From assembly GCF_022012305.1 (NCBI RefSeq), contig NZ_JAKLTM010000008.1, positions 62,001 through 126,000 of the forward strand: a stretch of 64,000 nucleotides of DNA, written 5' to 3'. The stretch is from Ramlibacter paludis. GTDB taxonomy: Bacteria > Pseudomonadota > Gammaproteobacteria > Burkholderiales > Burkholderiaceae_C. Position numbers and translations under genes: made by a program. This document shows positions 12,826 to 55,640 of the stretch, one piece after another. Within the stretch, counting starts at the first letter, position 1. Each line of letters begins with the position of its first letter. The notes under the pieces are model-generated. The model did no database searches. It saw only the letters and a list, made by a program, of their open reading frames with translations, and was not told where the DNA came from.

Positions 12826-13569
12826 TTACCGCGGCAGCCCGAACGCGGCGCCGAGGTAGATCGCCACCTCGCAAACCTGCTGGGCGAAGCCGACGTCGTC
12901 GAGCTCGACGCCGCCGCGGCGCTGGAAGCGATGGCGCAACACGGCGAACGCGATGGTGCCCAGCACCAGCGGCAGCAGGAGGAACTTCGCCCCGCCGGCC
13001 AGCAGCATCAGCACCAGCGGCGGCACGCACCAGAGGCAGGCCGCCAGCAGCGCACCGCGGTCGGCGCGCCGCAGCAAAGGGTGATCGGCCTGCGGGCGGC
13101 GCGGCGGCAGGCTCCAGGCGACCAGCAAGGCAAAGAGGCGCGACAGGGCGGCGGCGCCCAATAGAGCGGTCAGCAGCCCGACGCCCGAATGCAGTCCCAG
13201 CAGCGCCAGCAAGGCGAGCTTGGCCGCCAGCACCAGCATCAGTCCCGCGGGTCCCGTGCAATGGGCCAGGCTTTCTTCCGCCCGCACGCCGGCGACGAGC
13301 GCCATCGCCATGCTGGCGGCGACGGCCGCCACCAGCGGGCTCAGCGGCCCCGGCGGCAAGGGGAGGGACACCAGTGCGAAGACGACGCAGCCGGCCATGC
13401 CGGCGAGCAGGCCCACGCCGGGCCAGTGCCGCGCGCTGTCGGCCGTGTCGGCCGGCAACAGCTGAGCCCAGGCCGCGAGGCTGCCGGGAATGCGGATGCG
13501 CGAGAACGCCTGCGTCGCCGCCAGGCAGCGGCGCAGGAACAGCAGCGAGGAACGGCGCAGCGCGGTCAC
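12826..13569 (-). CDS. CobS-like (adenosylcobinamide-GDP ribazoletransferase family) membrane protein, degenerate motifs
   Basis: 247 residues, five to six hydrophobic helices. The overall layout follows CobS, the last enzyme of cobalamin assembly: AFSRIRIPG near the N-terminus (CobS FxTRxPxP), SARHWPGVGLLAG (CobS SxxxFPLxGLxxG), and a C-terminal GGVELDDVGFAQQVCEVAIYL matching the CobS GGxTGDxLGAxxxxxE stretch. The acidic signature that CobS carries after the third helix (HxDGLADxxD) is absent; the equivalent stretch reads VRAEESLAHCTGPAGL. GTG at 13569 overlaps the ilvA stop (GTGA), so it is translationally coupled to threonine deaminase. No other cobalamin gene is in the window. It may be a repurposed or inactive homologue. 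Confidence 0.6.
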   Translation of the reverse strand: MTALRRSSLLFLRRCLAATQAFSRIRIPGSLAAWAQLLPADTADSARHWPGVGLLAGMAGCVVFALVSLPLPPGPLSPLVAAVAASMAMALVAGVRAEESLAHCTGPAGLMLVLAAKLALLALLGLHSGVGLLTALLGAAALSRLFALLVAWSLPPRRPQADHPLLRRADRGALLAACLWCVPPLVLMLLAGGAKFLLLPLVLGTIAFAVLRHRFQRRGGVELDDVGFAQQVCEVAIYLGAAFGLPR

Positions 13570-15113
13570 TGGCTGCGCAGGAAGAGGCGGTACACCGGGT
13601 TGGCGGTCTCTTCGACGTAGGGGTAGCCCAGTTCGTCCAGGAAGGCCTGGAAGGCGGCGCCATCTTCCGCCGGCACCTGCAGGCCCACCAGGATGCGGCC
13701 GTAGTCGGCGCCCTGGTTGCGGTAGTGGAACAGCGAGATGTTCCAGGTCGGGCGCATGTGCGACAGGAACTTCATCAGCGCCCCGGGCCGCTCGGGAAAC
13801 ACGAAGCGCAGCAGGCGCTCGTCGTGCGCCAGGGGCGAGTGGCCGCCGACCATGTGGCGCACGTGCTCCTTGGCCAGCTCGTCGTGCGTGAGGTCCAGCG
13901 TCTCGAAGTCGTGGCGCGCGAAGTTGGCCGCGATGCGCGTCGACTCGCCCTTGCCGTGCGTGGCGAGGCCGACGAAGACGTGAGCCTGGCTCGAATCGCT
14001 GATGCGGTAGTTGAACTCGGTGACGTTGCGCGGCCCGCCCGGCAGCGCGCCGATCACCTCGCAGAAGCGGCGGAAGCTGCCGCGTTCCTCGGGGATGGTG
14101 ACGGCGAACAGCGCCTCGCGTTCCTCGCCGACTTCGGCGCGCTCGGCGACGAAGCGCAGGCGGTCGAAGTTCATGTTGGCGCCGCAGAGGATGGCGACGT
14201 AGGTCTCGCCGCGGGTCTTCTTCTCGGCGACGTACTGCTTGATCGCGGCCACCGCCAGCGCGCCGGCGGGCTCGACGATGCTGCGGGTGTCGACGAAAAC
14301 GTCCTTGATGCCGGCGCACACCGAGTCGGTGTCGACCAGCATGTACTCGTCGACCAGCTCCCGGGTCAGGCGGAAGGTCTCCTCGCCCACCAGCTTGACC
14401 GCGGTGCCGTCGGAGAACAGGCCGACGTCGGCGAGCGTTACGCGCTCCTTCGCCGCCACCGAGCGCGCCATGGCGTCGGAGTCGTTCATCTGCACGCCGA
14501 TCACCTTGATGCCCGGGCGCACCGCCTTGATGTAGCTCGCCACGCCCGAGATCAGGCCGCCGCCGCCGATGGCGACGAAGACGGCGTCGATCGGGCCCTG
14601 GTGCTGGCGCAGGATCTCCATCGCGATGGTGCCCTGGCCGGCGATGACTTCCGGGTCGTCGAAGGGATGCACGAAGGTCAGGCCCTGCTGCTCGCGCAGC
14701 TGCACGGCGTGGCCGTAGGCGTCGGAATAGCTGTCGCCGTGCAGCACCACCTCGCCGCCGAGTGCCTTCACCGCGTCGATCTTCACCTGCGGCGTGGTGA
14801 CCGGCATCACGATCAGGGCGCGGGCGCCGAGCTTGTGCGCCGCCATCGCCACGCCCTGGGCGTGGTTGCCGGCGGAGGCGCAGATCACGCCGCGCTGCAG
14901 TTCCTCCGGCGTGAGGTGCGCCATCTTGTTGTAGGCGCCGCGCAGCTTGAAGCTGAAGACGGCCTGCTGGTCCTCGCGCTTGAGCAGCACCTTGTTGTGC
15001 AGCCGGCGGCTGAGGTTGCGGGCGGGCTCCAGGGCGCTTTCGACGGCAACGTCGTAGACGCGGGCGGTGAGGATCTTCTTGAGGTAGTCCTCTGGCTGCA
15101 GCGGTTGGGTCAT
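13566..15113 (-). CDS. ilvA: Threonine ammonia-lyase (biosynthetic threonine deaminase)
   Basis: PLP enzyme converting threonine to 2-oxobutanoate, the first step to isoleucine. 515 residues, the long biosynthetic form. The PLP lysine is Lys56 in SFKLRGAYNKM; the Gly-rich phosphate loop is GGGGLISG and the Asn/Gly loop SAGNHAQGVA. Two ACT-like regulatory domains occupy about 325-515 (LFAVTIPEERGSFRRF and LLRFVFPERPGALMKFL), the site of isoleucine/valine control. Start ATG at 15113. A strong intrinsic terminator ends about 20 bases upstream (15131-15163). Confidence 0.96.
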   Translation of the reverse strand: MTQPLQPEDYLKKILTARVYDVAVESALEPARNLSRRLHNKVLLKREDQQAVFSFKLRGAYNKMAHLTPEELQRGVICASAGNHAQGVAMAAHKLGARALIVMPVTTPQVKIDAVKALGGEVVLHGDSYSDAYGHAVQLREQQGLTFVHPFDDPEVIAGQGTIAMEILRQHQGPIDAVFVAIGGGGLISGVASYIKAVRPGIKVIGVQMNDSDAMARSVAAKERVTLADVGLFSDGTAVKLVGEETFRLTRELVDEYMLVDTDSVCAGIKDVFVDTRSIVEPAGALAVAAIKQYVAEKKTRGETYVAILCGANMNFDRLRFVAERAEVGEEREALFAVTIPEERGSFRRFCEVIGALPGGPRNVTEFNYRISDSSQAHVFVGLATHGKGESTRIAANFARHDFETLDLTHDELAKEHVRHMVGGHSPLAHDERLLRFVFPERPGALMKFLSHMRPTWNISLFHYRNQGADYGRILVGLQVPAEDGAAFQAFLDELGYPYVEETANPVYRLFLRSQ

Positions 15114-15130
15114 GTGGTGCAGGATGATAG

Positions 15131-15163
15131 AAAAAAGCCCCTGGATCTTGCGATCCAGGGGCT
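15131..15163 (-). terminator. Rho-independent terminator of the candidate sRNA / ilvA leader
   Basis: A 12-bp perfect stem (AGCCCCTGGATC with GATCCAGGGGCT) and a 4-base loop, followed on the minus strand by six T at 15131-15136. There is no matching T-tract on the plus strand, so it acts on minus-strand transcription. Confidence 0.9.
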
Positions 15164-15221
15164 AAATCCACCAAAGGAGGAGGTGGAGGAGACAACCGGT
15201 GCGTAGCGAATCGCTATGCTT
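15131..15221 (-). ncRNA. Candidate small RNA with anti-Shine-Dalgarno loop
   Basis: On the minus strand a -10 element TATACT (15228-15233) precedes about 90 nt that fold as three stem-loops. The first is an imperfect hairpin around TAGCGATTCGCTA. The second has stem CCACC/GGTGG presenting the loop TCCTCCTTT, with a further CTCCTCC just 5' of it. The last is the terminator AGCCCCTGGATC/GATCCAGGGGCT followed by six T. The loop is the exact complement of AAAGGAGGA, a full Shine-Dalgarno sequence. C/U-rich anti-SD loops are a hallmark of regulatory sRNAs such as the alphaproteobacterial CuckooRNAs; I cannot name a betaproteobacterial family. Alternative: a terminated 5' leader of ilvA. Confidence 0.6.
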
Positions 15222-15227
15222 GCGCCC

Positions 15228-15258
15228 AGTATAAACCCGTATTTGTTGCATTGCACAA
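15228..15258 (-). promoter_or_regulatory. Promoter candidate for the sRNA
   Basis: Minus strand: -35 TTGTGC (15253-15258) and -10 TATACT (15228-15233), spacer 19. The -10 is 5 of 6 to consensus; the spacer is long, so the -35 assignment is tentative. Confidence 0.45.
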
Positions 15259-15330
15259 GCCCCTGTGGCGGCGCGGCATCGCAATTCGCGGAAATTATTG
15301 GCGGAAAGCCTCAGCAACGAAGGAACGACG

Positions 15331-15780
15331 ATGGAATGCACAGTGACATGGACCGGCGCCACGGGCGCGCGCTCGGGCATGGGCTTCCTGGCGGAGACCG
15401 GCACCGGCCACACCTTGATGATGGATGGCGCGCCCGACGAGGCGCGGCCGGAGAACGGCGGCCGCAACCTGGCGCCGCGGCCGATGGAGACGGTGCTGGC
15501 CGGCACCGGCGGCTGCACCGCCTACGACGTGGTGCTGATCCTCAAGCGCGGCCGCCACGACGTGCGCGGCTGCTCGGTCAAGCTCAGCGCGGAGCGCGCG
15601 CCGACCGACCCGAAAGTGTTCACGAAGATCCACATGCACTTCACGGTGCAGGGCCGCGGCCTGCAGGCGCAGGCCGTGGAACGCGCCATCGCCATGAGCC
15701 ACGAGAAGTACTGCTCCGCGAGCGCGATGCTGGCGAAGACGGCGGAGATGACGACCAGCTTCGAGCTGGTTGAAGACTAG
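15331..15780 (+). CDS. OsmC family protein (peroxiredoxin-like)
   Basis: 149 residues from ATG at 15331 behind GAAGGA. The two conserved cysteines of the OsmC/Ohr fold are in [10 protein letters not shown] and EKYCSAS; the pattern fits the YhfA/OsmC branch rather than Ohr. Such proteins reduce organic hydroperoxides or bind sulfur compounds; the substrate is not evident. The stop overlaps the stop of convergent coq7 by 3 bases. Confidence 0.88.
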
Positions 15781-16394
15781 ATGTAGTGCGCGGTGGTGGT
15801 CATCACCTTGGCCGCCGCGCGCATCGCAGCCCGCACCGGCGGCGGCAGTTCGATGCCGCCCGCGCGCTGCGCCGCCTCGGCGTGGGCGCGCTCGTCGTCC
15901 TTCATCTGCGCCACGATGGCGCGTGATGCATGGTCGCCGGCGGGCAGCCGTTCCAGGTGGCTTTCCAGGTGCGCTTCCACTTGGCGCTCGGTCTCGACCA
16001 CGAAACCCTGGCTGACCGGATCGCCGAAGCGGCCGGCGACCAGGCCGAGGCCGAAGGCGCCGGCGTACCAGAGGGGATTGAGCAGCGAAGGGCGCGCCCC
16101 CAGTTCTTCGAGCCGCGACCGGGTCCAGGCGAGGTGGTCGGTCTCCTCGCGGGCCGCCTGCTCCAGGCGGGCACGGGTGACGGGGTCGGAAGCGGTCATC
16201 GCCTGCGCCGTGTAAAGCGCCTGGGCGCAGACCTCGCCGACGTGGTTCACGCGCATGAGGGCGCCCGCATGGGCCCTTTCCTGGGCGCCGAGGTGGGTGT
16301 CATCGGCCGGAACCACCGGGCAGGGGCGGGTGGCGCGGGGGGTGGCGAACAGCGTCCGCAGGGCGCCGTCGAGCGCGCCTATCAAGCGATCCAT
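15777..16394 (-). CDS. coq7: Demethoxyubiquinone hydroxylase Coq7
   Basis: Di-iron monooxygenase of ubiquinone synthesis. 205 residues from ATG at 16394. Iron-ligand motifs of the ferritin-like fold are visible: [36 protein letters not shown] and [27 protein letters not shown] is the Coq7 membrane-facing hydrophobic segment. A longer frame upstream to 16706 lacks similarity and is ignored. Confidence 0.93.
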
Positions 16395-16689
16395 GGACAA
16401 AGTGTAATTCGCGCCATCCTGGGGCGATTTGTAGGACGGATGCCCGTCGTTTTGCGATACGAAATGGGTGTTGCGTGAGGTCCACTCAGCGGTTATGCGC
16501 TTGTTGTCGGTGTGCAACGAATGGACTCGGTTCCGGCTAAATCCTTTGCGAACGCGGGGGCCGTCTGGTGCAATAGCAACAACTTCCCAAAAGGAGGTTG
16601 GCCCGGGGATCCGGTGGGAGCACGAACGTGCCTGCATTCCGATCTCCCAATCGCACCGGAGCCCTATGTTTAACCTTGGAGAAACTTGC
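16395..16689 (+). other. 295-bp intergenic leader of the porin gene
   Basis: Between divergent coq7 and the porin. It holds AAAAGGAGG at 16589-16597, about 95 bases before the porin ATG and with no start codon at proper distance, plus a second true ribosome site (TTGGAG, 16676-16681). No convincing -35/-10 pair was found. An in-frame ATG at 16666 would add eight residues before the signal peptide. The long untranslated leader is typical of sRNA-regulated porins (inference). Confidence 0.4.
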
Positions 16690-17853
16690 ATGAAAAAGTC
16701 CCTCATTGCGCTGGCCGTGCTGGCTGCCGCTGGTGCGGCTTCCGCTCAGTCGTCGGTGACCCTGTTCGGTATCGTCGACGCCACGCTGGCCTGGGGTCGT
16801 GGTAACGGCGCCGGCTCTGTCGATCGCTTCCAACTGACCAACTCGGGCTACAACAGCTCGCGTCTGGGCTTCCGTGGTACGGAAGACCTGGGCGGCGGCA
16901 TGTCCGCCTCCTTCTGGCTGGAAGCCGGTCTGAACAACGACGACGGCCGCGGCGCTGCCACCAACACCAACAACACGATCGCCGGCGGCGCTGCTGCTGG
17001 CCAAGCCGGCAGCCAAGGTCTGACGTTCAACCGTCGTTCCACGGTCAGCCTGGCTGGCAACTGGGGCGAACTGCGCCTGGGCCGTGACTACACCCCGTCC
17101 TTCTGGAACCTGACGGTCTTCGATCCGTTCGGCACCAACGGCGTGGGCACGAACCAGATGCTGAACGGCGTCGCCAGCGGCGTGAACCCCTTCACCGGCA
17201 CCGCCGCCGCGTCGGCCAACCCGGGCGGCTTCTACCCGACCCAAGTTCGTGCTTCGAACTCCATCGGCTACTTCCTGCCCCGTAACCTGGGCGGCTTCTA
17301 CGGCCAGGCCATGTACTACAGCGGCGAGAACCAGGCCACTGGCGCTCGTGACGGCAAGGGCTACAGCGGCCGCGTCGGCTACGCTGCTGGTCCGTTCAAC
17401 GTCGCGCTGGGCTACAACCGCCAGCGCATGGTTGGCACCGCGACCACGGTCGCCGGCGTCCAGGGCGACATCCGCACCTGGAACATCGGTGGTCAGTGGG
17501 ACTTCGGCGTCGCCAAGCTGATGGGCCAGTACGGCCGTGACGACGTCCAGCTGGGCGCTCCGGAAATCAACGGCCGCGGCTGGCTGATCGGTACCCTGGT
17601 GCCGGTCGGCGCTGGCGAAATTCGCGCTTCCTACAGCGAATACCGCGTCAGCTCCAACATCATCGCCAACGACCCGAAGAGCCAGAAGTTCGCGCTGGGC
17701 TACGTGCACAACCTGTCCAAGCGGACCGCCCTGTACACGACCTACGCCTACCTGAAGAACCGCGACGGCGCCAACAGCGCTGTCAACGGTGCCTCCACCG
17801 CCGTGAACGAGAACTCGTCCGGCCTGGACCTGGGCATCCGCCACAGCTTCTGA
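16690..17853 (+). CDS. Outer-membrane general porin (Porin_4/OmpC-like)
   Basis: Trimeric beta-barrel porin. 387 residues: signal peptide 1-20 ([20 protein letters not shown]), then [18 protein letters not shown], the classic first strand of beta-proteobacterial porins, the L3-like region and a terminal Phe (GIRHSF) needed for BAM recognition. Codon use is more T-rich at third positions than the neighbours, as in very highly expressed genes. ATG at 16690 has GGAG 8 bases upstream. Followed by an intrinsic terminator. Confidence 0.95.
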
Positions 17854-38636: not shown

Positions 38637-40040
38637 TTGATCGACGTCCTGGTGATCGGCGGCGGCAATGCCGCCCTGTGCGCCGCGCTGATGGCGCGCG
38701 AAGCCGGCGCCAGCGTGCTGCTGCTGGAGGCGTCCCCGCGCGACTGGCGCGGCGGCAATTCGCAGCACACGCGCAACCTGCGCTGCATGCACGATGAACC
38801 CCAGGACGTGCTGCTCGAGAGCTATCCCGAAGAGGAGTTCTGGCAGGACCTGCTGAAGGTCACCGGCGGCAAGACCGACGAGAAGCTGGCGCGGCTCGTG
38901 ATCCGCGCCTCCTCCACCTGCCGGCCCTGGATGCAGAAACACGGCGTGCGCTTCCAGCCCTCGCTGGCGGGCACGCTGCACCTGTCGCGCACCAACGCCT
39001 TCTTCATGGGCGGGGGCAAGGCGCTGGTCAACGCCTATTACCGCAGCGCCGAAAAGCTCGGCGTGCAGGTGCGCTACGACGCGCCGGTGGACCGCCTCGA
39101 CCTGGAAGGCGGGCGCTTCGTGGCGGCGCGCGTGCGCGGCCAACGCATCGCCGCCAAGGCCTGCGTGCTGGCCGCGGGCGGTTTCGAATCCAACCGCGCC
39201 TGGCTGCGCGAGGCCTGGGGCCAGAACGAGCGCGGCGAGTGGCCGGCCGACAACTTCCTGATCCGCGGCACCCGCTTCAACCAGGGCGTGCTGCTCAAGC
39301 ACATGATGGAGCAGGGCGCTGACACCATCGGCGACCCGTCGCAGTCGCACTGCGTGGCCATCGACGCGCGCGCGCCGCTGTACGACGGCGGCATCGTCAC
39401 GCGCGTGGACTGCGTGTCGCTCGGCGTCATGCTCAATCGCGACGGCCTGCGCTTCTACGACGAGGGCGAGGACTTCTGGCCCAAGCGCTATGCGATCTGG
39501 GGCCGGCTGGTCGCGTTGCAGGCCGGCCAGATCGGCTTCTGCATCATCGACAGCCAGGCGGTGGGGCGCTTCATGCCGCCGGTGTTCCCGGGCGTGCAGG
39601 CCGACAGCCTGCCGCAGCTCGCGCAGCGGCTGGGCCTGGACGTGGGCCGCTTCATGCACACCCTGAGCGACTACAACGCCGCCTGCCGCCCCGGCACCTT
39701 CGACCACACGGTGCTGGACGACTGCGCAACCGTCGGCCTGGTGCCGCCCAAGAGCCACTGGGCCCGCCCGATCGAGAAGCCGCCCTTCTTCGGCTATGCG
39801 CTGCGTCCCGGCATCACCTTCACCTACCTGGGGCTCAAGACCGACGAGACCGCGGCGGTGCGCTTCGGCGGCGTGGCGAGCGACAACCTGTTCGTGGCCG
39901 GCGAGATGATGGCCGGCAACGTGCTGGGGCAGGGCTACACCGCCGGCGTCGGCATGAGCATAGGCACGGCCTTCGGCCGCATCGCCGGCGAGCAGGCGGC
40001 CCGCGCCGCGCTGAAGGAGGCTACGCTTGCACAAGCTTGA
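38637..40040 (+). CDS. tcuA: FAD-dependent tricarballylate dehydrogenase TcuA
   Basis: Oxidises tricarballylate to cis-aconitate. 467 residues from TTG at 38637. The FAD-binding [17 protein letters not shown] at the N-terminus and the flavoprotein C-terminal [30 protein letters not shown] fit the fumarate reductase/TcuA group. Immediately followed, with 14 bases of overlap, by TcuB. No ATG is available near the start. Confidence 0.88.
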
Positions 40041-54857: not shown

Positions 54858-55640
54858 ATGACCCTTGCCACCGTCGCCACCAACGTCCTGACCTTCGTGC
54901 CGGCCGCCGCCGCCCGCACGCGCATGCCCGTGGCGCCGCTGAAGACCAGCTGCTCCACCTGCCACCTGCGCGACCTGTGCCTGCCCTGCGGCCTGAATGG
55001 CAGCGAGCGGGAAAGCCTGGACCGGCTGATGTTCGGGCGGCGCAAGGTTGCCGCCGGCCAGGCGCTGTACCGGGCCGGCGACAAGTTCCGCTTCATCTAC
55101 GCGGTGCGCAGCGGCACCTTCAAGTCCAGCCTGGCGCTGCCCGGCGACCGCGAGCAGGTGAGCGGCTTCCACATGGCCGGCGAGCTGATGGGGCTGGACG
55201 CGATCGCCAACGGCGCGCATGCCAGCACGGCGATCGCGCTGGAGGACACCGAGGTCTGCACGATCCAGTACTCGCACCTGAACGAGGCCATCGCCGAAAG
55301 CGGCAACATCCAGCTGGCGATGGCGCAGCTGATGTCGCGCGAGATCGTGCGCGAGCACAGCCTGATGATGCTGCTGGGAAGCATGAACGCCGAAGAGCGG
55401 CTGGCCGCCTTCCTGCTGAACCTGTCGCAGCGCATGAAGGCGCGCGGCTACTCCGCCACCGAATTCCACCTGCGCATGTCGCGCGCGGAAATCGGCAGCT
55501 ACCTGGGCATGAAGCTCGAGACCGTCAGCCGGACCTTCTCGGCCTTCCAGCAGCAGGAGCTGCTGGAGGTGGACAAGAAACACGTGCGCATCCTGGACCT
55601 CGAGCGGCTCGGCCGCGTGGTCGCAACCCGCATGCACTGA
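54858..55640 (+). CDS. fnr: Oxygen-sensing transcription regulator FNR
   Basis: 260 residues. 4Fe-4S ligands Cys32, Cys35, Cys41 (CSTCHLRDLC) and central Cys134 (TEVCTIQY), with exactly the E. coli FNR spacing (2, 5 and 93). The CRP-type HTH reads RAEIGSYLGMKLETVSRTF with E-x2-S-R for TTGAT recognition. FNR boxes are seen at 43306, 45665, 48863, 58776 and 58822. ATG at 54858. Confidence 0.95.
   Translation: MTLATVATNVLTFVPAAAARTRMPVAPLKTSCSTCHLRDLCLPCGLNGSERESLDRLMFGRRKVAAGQALYRAGDKFRFIYAVRSGTFKSSLALPGDREQVSGFHMAGELMGLDAIANGAHASTAIALEDTEVCTIQYSHLNEAIAESGNIQLAMAQLMSREIVREHSLMMLLGSMNAEERLAAFLLNLSQRMKARGYSATEFHLRMSRAEIGSYLGMKLETVSRTFSAFQQQELLEVDKKHVRILDLERLGRVVATRMH

Follow-up and report, generated by a model that had tools for sequence, protein, structure and literature searches.

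By covariance score, a feature on the minus strand of Ramlibacter paludis, located between ilvA and a divergent gene of the OsmC family, is real and is an added member of an already known family of small RNAs (sRNAs), RF02278. The window referred to in this study is the whole stretch of DNA analysed, 64,000 nucleotides of contig NZ_JAKLTM010000008.1 (positions 62,001 to 126,000 of the forward strand). Four things were computed: the family of the RNA, its conserved structure, an operator match with its position at the promoter, and an enrichment of complementary sites. The explanation that fits them best, and which we consider likely, is that this RNA acts in trans, is repressed by PhaR, and slows carbon uptake and PHB synthesis when the stores are full.

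An Rfam covariance search matched RF02278, listed as "Betaproteobacteria toxic sRNA", at positions 15129–15194 of the window (minus strand) with 61.3 bits over the complete model (1–64 of 64), the curated cut-off being 50 bits. This was the single match at the gathering threshold in the whole 64-kb window, and the layout of two hairpins, CU-rich unpaired stretches and an intrinsic terminator is that of the family. In a permissive Rfam scan, NmsRb (RF02877; 29.8 bits, cut-off 52), anti-hemB (26.8 bits, cut-off 49.5), suhB/MmgR (RF00519; 18 bits, cut-off 41) and further families stayed below threshold. The matched interval is probably a processed form of about 66 nt; the corresponding S17S of B. 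pertussis has 67 nt (PMC11722255). Described relatives are ncS03, ncS05, ncS27 and ncS62 of B. cenocepacia and S17 of B. pertussis. The family is named for toxicity, as growth inhibition in E. coli has been reported for it, while S17S is not similarly toxic. A prior sequence-only reading had interpreted the feature as a trans-acting RNA that masks Shine-Dalgarno (SD) sequences. This interpretation is well supported by the RF02278 membership; for two described members, ncS27 and S17, action on ribosome-binding sites has been reported. Two other parts of the same reading, namely the assignment to the cuckoo RNAs and the emphasis on a perfect loop, did not stand (see below).

The genome of the window (4.99 Mb, 21 contigs) holds one RF02278 copy over the cut-off. 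The next-best match scores 22.5 bits, and we dropped such weak matches as noise rather than paralogues, since 13 of 14 control genomes also give matches at E ≤ 10. Matches were found in most sampled genomes of the same bacterial family (170/200 at E ≤ 0.001, 141/200 over the cut-off). In the sample of the class, 103 of 369 genomes matched at E ≤ 0.001 and 3 exceeded the cut-off; all three belong to the window's own family, and more distant relatives are therefore weaker. The family and class searches gave no match in the 14 control genomes. An exact 37-nt core of the RNA is present in 12 stretches of named Ramlibacter, Xylophilus and Curvibacter genomes, and a search of plasmid records for the window's sRNA gave no match.

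The elements noticed on the minus strand by the sequence-only reading are in place. A -10 element TATACT lies at 15233–15228, upstream of about 90 nt with three stem-loops, and is supported by its spacing to an operator in relatives. The arms CCACC and GGTGG present UCCUCCUUU, with CUCCUCC directly upstream, and a 12-bp terminator stem followed by a T-run was found at 15130–15163 in a scan of 15050–15400. A consensus scan of the same interval detected no sigma-70 consensus promoter, and the window's own -35 element is weak. The 102-nt stretch 15230–15129 folds into three stem-loops with a minimum free energy (MFE) of -47.6 kcal/mol (z = -6.2; 0 of 200 shuffles were as stable), and a 92-nt form gives z = -6.4. 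From 5' to 3', a leader hairpin of the predicted primary transcript (15201–15219, with the start site assumed from the -10 element) is followed by a conserved 5' end TGTCTCCTCC at 15194–15185, the equivalent of Site 1 of S17, and by hairpin 1 at 15187–15167. Hairpin 1 is composed of TCCACC (15187–15182), the loop TCCTCCTTT (15181–15173; the equivalent of Site 2) and GGTGGA (15172–15167). Nucleotides 1–7 of the 5' end are unpaired in the MFE structure of the short form; in the 92-nt form there is a weak 2-bp pairing at nucleotides 6–7.

Conservation was evaluated in 149 loci among the matches listed, comprising the window locus, 31 loci delivered by the searches and 117 others; one locus at a contig edge (genome G102) was left out. 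These loci were picked by a covariance-model score that itself rewards a conserved 5' end, and they are kin by descent, hence counts over them are not independent events. In 148 of these 149 loci the RNA starts with the same ten nucleotides, TGTCTCCTCC, of which nucleotides 1–8 are the complement of AGGAGACA. Exactly complementary arms of hairpin 1, 4–7 nt long, occur in all 149, with paired changes from CCACC/GGTGG to CCATC/GATGG or CCACT/AGTGG (arm pairs TCCACC/GGTGGA in 113 loci, TCCATC/GATGGA in 17, TCCACT/AGTGGA in 3, and others). The loop itself varies: among the matches listed, TCCTCCTTT is found within nucleotides 9–30 in 13 of 149 loci. Since the loop varies while the 5' end stays conserved, the emphasis on UCCUCCUUU as a perfect anti-SD loop was off target; the conserved part is TGTCTCCTCC, which precedes it. 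The leaders vary in sequence yet fold, with a mean z of -2.21 for 97 leaders of 20–80 nt, start sites in relatives being assumed from the -10 element, versus -0.14 for 107 control segments.

A 17-bp palindrome, CTTGTGCAATGCAACAA, at 15243–15259 (minus strand) overlaps the -35 region of the sRNA promoter. It matches YTKNTGCRNYGCANMAR, the consensus deduced for PhaR of Ralstonia eutropha (PMC12849132), at 17 of 17 positions. Counting this one, the genome of the window has 11 perfect sites of this type, several of them inside predicted genes, versus one for the reversed pattern. In 140 of the 149 loci among the matches listed, one or more of ilvA, osmC (the OsmC-family gene) and coq7 was matched nearby, and these loci are termed syntenic here. 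The best upstream site has 0, 1, 2, 3, 4, 5 and 6 mismatches in 30, 42, 34, 26, 5, 2 and 1 of the 140 syntenic loci, so that 106 carry an operator with 0–2 mismatches and, counting against it, 34 have only sites with three or more. The nine non-syntenic loci have best sites with 1, 3, 4 and 5 mismatches in 1, 3, 3 and 2 cases, and here it counts against the operator that eight of nine lack any site with at most two mismatches. Dinucleotide shuffles reach at most two mismatches in about 4.7%, and control windows elsewhere in the loci contain such sites in 0–3 of about 145; the exception, which also counts against, is a control window just downstream of the sRNA (24/146). Shuffle and window controls were computed on 146 of the 149 loci, the operator counts on all 149. 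The region of that downstream window holds a second PhaR-like palindrome in some loci; in 36 of 149 (for example L165, L167 and L179) one with at most two mismatches lies between +66 and +260 relative to the conserved 5' end, often directly after a TATCAT hexamer, and ilvA might be PhaR-regulated in some relatives.

On the strand of the sRNA, 90 of the 106 loci have their best -10 element 8–10 nt past the operator, whereas its positions on the osmC strand are dispersed. The OsmC gene is disfavoured as the gene served by the operator, because a fixed -10 spacing occurs only on the strand of the sRNA. The 25 columns preceding the operator carry 0–0.2 bits, the operator columns having been selected by the consensus, which inflates their own information content. 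PhaR (PF07879) is encoded in 195 of 200 genomes of the bacterial family, the window's own included. A phasin gene of the own genome (PF09361, 2.3e-28) is preceded by a perfect PhaR palindrome, and 24 of 30 phasin loci, this one included, carry a site with 0–1 mismatch within 250 nt upstream, versus 2 of 54 controls; these 30 loci come from a search of 31 genomes, 26 of which gave a match. Traits expected of a PhaR regulon are found together here: the palindrome at the promoter, and a genome that encodes PhaR and carries this operator upstream of a phasin gene. Operator match, spacing, phasin operators and the presence of PhaR make control of the sRNA promoter by PhaR the best reading, with binding being predicted. 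In R. eutropha, PhaR is sequestered to the granules during PHA synthesis and repression of phaP1 is relieved; the sites beside the -35 element and around the start of phaP1 are described as typical of a repressor (PMC12849132).

Through UGUCUCCU, its conserved 5' end, the RNA is complementary to AGGAGACA, a sequence frequent at predicted ribosome-binding sites. The pattern AGGAGACA-N(0-9)-ATG has 86 matches at 85 distinct places in the genome of the window, whereas the reversed control has 2; for AGGAG-N(3-12)-ATG the numbers are 1414 and 458. Of the 85 sites, 41 lie 121–196 nt before a match to PF03401 (Bug/TctC), where about 1.9 would be expected if 4700 genes are assumed. Among the first 100 AGGAG sites, 13 have ACA, and 7 of these precede a Bug gene; of the 87 that lack ACA, none does. 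According to Pfam, the other 44 sites belong to nine ABC-type solute-binding proteins, five DctP, one DctQ, one TctB, two MFS proteins, four tannase/feruloyl esterases, one PhaC and AMP-binding enzymes, the rest including one protein of the amino-acid-kinase family, one cytidylyltransferase-like protein, TerC, a response regulator and a hemerythrin; the genes at three of these sites have no Pfam match. NCBIfam assigns gentisate dioxygenase, 4-hydroxybenzoate monooxygenase and a benzoate-CoA ligase family protein over the cut-off. The best matches to class I PHA synthase, AceE, PrpE and an acyl-CoA synthetase remain below the whole-protein cut-offs, because the translated stretches ended at 367 amino acids. 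A AGGAGACA site is carried by phaC (once among the 85), aceE and prpE as well.

Inside the window, AGGAGACA before an ATG is listed once, at 55640. Four sites of the window had been named as matching the loop; at 2962 and 20987 an ATG does follow 8 nt after AAAGGAG, at 40014 it is a TTG that follows 6 nt after AGGAGG, and at 16589 the stretch examined holds no start codon. An extended target, GGAGGAGACA, was considered and rejected: longer pairing by Site 1 is not general, because GGAGGAGACA occurs before an ATG only once. In replicons of Variovorax, Cupriavidus and Polaromonas, GGAGACA is present in 12 of 22 Bug genes and the full AGGAGACA in 6, versus 0 of 5 Bug genes with GGAGACA in four alphaproteobacterial stretches, a small control; in both groups, the picking of Bug-gene starts favours starts with the motif. 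Among all AGGAG sites, AGGAGACA before an ATG amounts to 6/46 in betaproteobacterial versus 1/43 in alphaproteobacterial stretches. A profile-based scan of Bug ribosome-binding sites in the own genome gave 12/33.

These data may suggest a mechanism in which we infer transcription, cleavage, PhaR binding, target repression and a physiological role as follows. Transcription would begin near 15221 and end at the terminator near 15130, so that the primary RNA would measure about 92 nt. A cut in the linker ahead of UGUCUCC would take off the 5' hairpin. The stable remainder of about 66 nt would have UGUCUCCU as its free 5' end and would pair through it with AGGAGACA ribosome-binding sites, while the hairpin loop UCCUCCUUU may be able to pair with other SD sequences. 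Such pairing is predicted to block ribosomes mainly on genes of solute-binding receptors (Bug/TctC, ABC and TRAP), and also on acyl-CoA ligase and aromatic-degradation genes, phaC and aceE. As the promoter is apparently built into the PhaR operator, PhaR would repress the sRNA when storage polymer is absent. Once PHB accumulates, PhaR would move to the granules and be titrated, the sRNA would be derepressed, and carbon uptake and PHB synthesis would be slowed while the stores are full. We further hypothesize that across the Burkholderiaceae the RF02278 sRNA of the osmC-coq7-ilvA locus is repressed by PhaR and senses PHB, and that its conserved 5' end UGUCUCCU reads a AGGAGACA code shared by dozens of genes for receptors of the Bug, ABC and TRAP types, by catabolic genes and by phaC; for this wider statement we see about even chances. 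If it is true, a full carbon store switches off uptake and further polymer synthesis post-transcriptionally, and the RNA would be a betaproteobacterial counterpart, from a different Rfam family, of the rhizobial PhaR-MmgR pair.

Three alternative explanations need to be weighed, one of which concerns the locus. The gene ilvA (13566–15113, minus strand; TIGR01124, 807 bits; PF00291 and PF00585) encodes a biosynthetic threonine ammonia-lyase; the sRNA sits between it and the OsmC-family gene (15322–15780, plus strand; PF02566), which is followed by coq7 (15777–16706, minus strand; PF03232). The short RNA could be a mere by-product of a terminated ilvA leader, with transcripts that start upstream of the sRNA and either stop or read through into ilvA in response to isoleucine or another signal. 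In line with this, 129 of the 149 loci among the matches listed have ilvA downstream in the same orientation as the sRNA; only 15 nt separate the Rfam match from the ilvA ATG in the window, and by eye no SD is visible before this ATG. However, a TAT[CG]AT hexamer occurs within 100 nt past the sRNA terminator in 103 of the 129 loci with ilvA downstream, versus 1.4 expected by shuffling. Because of this, ilvA probably has a promoter of its own after the terminator, and the window's TATCAT (15129–15124, minus strand), which is kept in relatives as TAT[CG]AT, is its probable -10 element. It ends 10 nt before the ilvA ATG (15113); since it places the transcript start near the ATG and an SD is absent by eye, the ilvA mRNA of the window is likely leaderless. 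The link to ilvA is also not a fixed one. In 127 loci, ilvA begins anywhere between about 82 and 861 nt away from the RNA's conserved 5' end. Among the 140 syntenic loci, 111 keep all three neighbours as in the window, 16 keep ilvA and osmC, 2 ilvA only and 2 ilvA on the other strand, whereas 9 keep osmC and the sRNA (8 with coq7, 1 without) with ilvA unmatched in the stretch examined. A further 9 of the 149 listed loci match none of the three neighbours, and among 27 class-level loci ilvA is matched in 1 and coq7 in 7. S17 is flanked by a glycosyltransferase gene and coq7 in the description of its locus (PMC11722255), and an isoleucine-rich leader peptide was not seen by eye in the window. 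A probable separate ilvA promoter and an sRNA that occurs without ilvA nearby are not what an attenuator would present, and a leader of ilvA, which had been raised as an equal alternative by the sequence-only reading, is unlikely.

The sRNA might also be real and trans-acting while the palindrome is not a PhaR site and another regulator is in charge. The link of S17 to the Bvg state reported for B. pertussis (PMC11722255) and the 34 of 140 syntenic loci without a site of at most two mismatches speak for this explanation. It is opposed by the 17/17 match to the PhaR consensus, by the same palindrome upstream of phasin genes and by the presence of PhaR in 195 of 200 family genomes, and we consider it unlikely. 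As to the target sites, AGGAGACA may be the favoured SD context of this lineage, or may have been copied along with an expanding Bug family, without any specific control by the sRNA. The 106 PF03401 matches in one genome of 5 Mb indicate a large paralogous family, and the betaproteobacterial comparison took in no genome lacking the sRNA. On the other hand, no trinucleotide follows AGGAG more often than ACA in the 100 sites listed (13, versus 7 for the next), although ACA is not complementary to the 16S tail. Moreover, AGGAGACA is carried by unrelated families, including nine ABC-type receptors, five DctP, four tannases, CoA ligases and phaC, and the GGAGACA counts in Bug genes (12/22 versus 0/5, the latter a small control) point in the same direction. 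As a complete explanation this appears rather doubtful; inheritance of Bug genes with the ribosome-binding sites in front of them, or a favoured SD context, may partly account for AGGAGACA at Bug genes. Repression by PhaR of a trans-acting RNA that reads AGGAGACA hence continues to be our preferred explanation.

As S17 of B. pertussis lies between a glycosyltransferase gene and coq7 (BP3152), the sRNA of the window is probably its positional counterpart. The layout of 5' end, hairpin and terminator is the same and coq7 is a neighbour of both, while the other neighbour differs, the window's sRNA being flanked by ilvA and the OsmC gene. The S17 report (PMC11722255) describes a primary form of 190 nt with a putative ORF of 32 residues, as opposed to the predicted 92 nt or so in the window. 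RNase E trims S17 to 67 nt, and Hfq has an enhancing effect on it. According to the same source, BP2158 is repressed via the 5' end (Site 1) as shown with compensatory mutations, and many transport genes are among the identified genes (32 transporter-related genes or operons); counting against such a role, two of five candidate targets gave no reporter response. Its authors postulate an unidentified repressor of the S17 promoter (PMC11722255).

The B. cenocepacia RNAs ncS03, ncS05, ncS27 and ncS62 are termed double-hairpin RNAs and have two hairpins with CU-rich unpaired stretches like the sRNA of the window; four copies are described there, versus one over the cut-off here. ncS27 is 92 nt long, and processing can convert it into a short form (PMC5688073), as is predicted for the window. 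In the same paper, ncS03, ncS05 and ncS27 rise 8.0-, 6.9- and 4.3-fold in glucose medium, what regulates their accumulation is called unknown, and a common upstream motif of three homologues is mentioned. This motif may be the PhaR palindrome seen at the window's sRNA promoter.

Other RNAs that mask SD sequences or are tied to PHB differ in family and genomic setting. NmsRA and NmsRB of Neisseria (RF02877; NgncR_162/163) share the three stem-loops and an anti-SD stretch between SL1 and SL2 with the window's sRNA (PMC5362039), but are a tandem pair with reported interactions with prpB, prpC, gltA and sucC, and with 29.8 bits the window's sRNA stays under their cut-off of 52. The nearest precedent for an sRNA controlled by PhaR is, by analogy, MmgR of S. 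meliloti (RF00519, alpha-r8), a PHB-tied sRNA that is described as negatively controlled by AniA/PhaR (PMC8401924). MmgR differs in being alphaproteobacterial and in affecting phasin levels, and the window's sRNA scores just 18 bits against its cut-off of 41. Like the window's sRNA, the cuckoo RNAs have C/U-rich loops that could cover SD sequences. They are alphaproteobacterial (CcsR1-4 of Rhodobacter) and arrayed behind a DUF1127/CcaF1 gene. Membership in this group was rejected, as the window's sRNA matches a separate, betaproteobacterial Rfam family, is present in a single copy over the RF02278 cut-off, and has ilvA and the OsmC gene, then coq7, as neighbours.

The RNA family, the masking of SD sequences and transporter targets are already known for S17 and ncS27. 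PhaR does not occur in the main texts of PMC5688073 and PMC11722255, and a literature search, judged largely from titles and abstracts and with little coverage of subscription journals, found no link of PhaR to the RF02278 family. As far as these searches reach, gating by PhaR and a AGGAGACA code are new hypotheses with strong comparative support. The PhaR operator offers a testable answer to the question of what switches on these RNAs, which are widespread in the family, and of the environmental signal involved, namely carbon storage. A AGGAGACA code would account for the control of tens of the numerous Bug receptors by a single RNA, and a possible handle on PHB yield would be gained.

Several minor observations were made along the way. 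The TctC/Bug receptor family of the own genome is very large. Perfect PhaR palindromes of this genome were also seen between the phasin gene and a divergent gene of the histone-deacetylase family (C12:179922–179938), 175 nt before a gene for an NMT1-like transport receptor (C16:208559–208575), and 105 nt before a gene for a K+ transporter (PF02705; C21:103133–103149), the latter two being possible members of the regulon. Outside the window's own family, the class also contains weaker relatives of RF02278 (L050, L055) with palindromes of the TTGCGC-GCAACA type upstream, which by eye are possibly two PhaR-like boxes.
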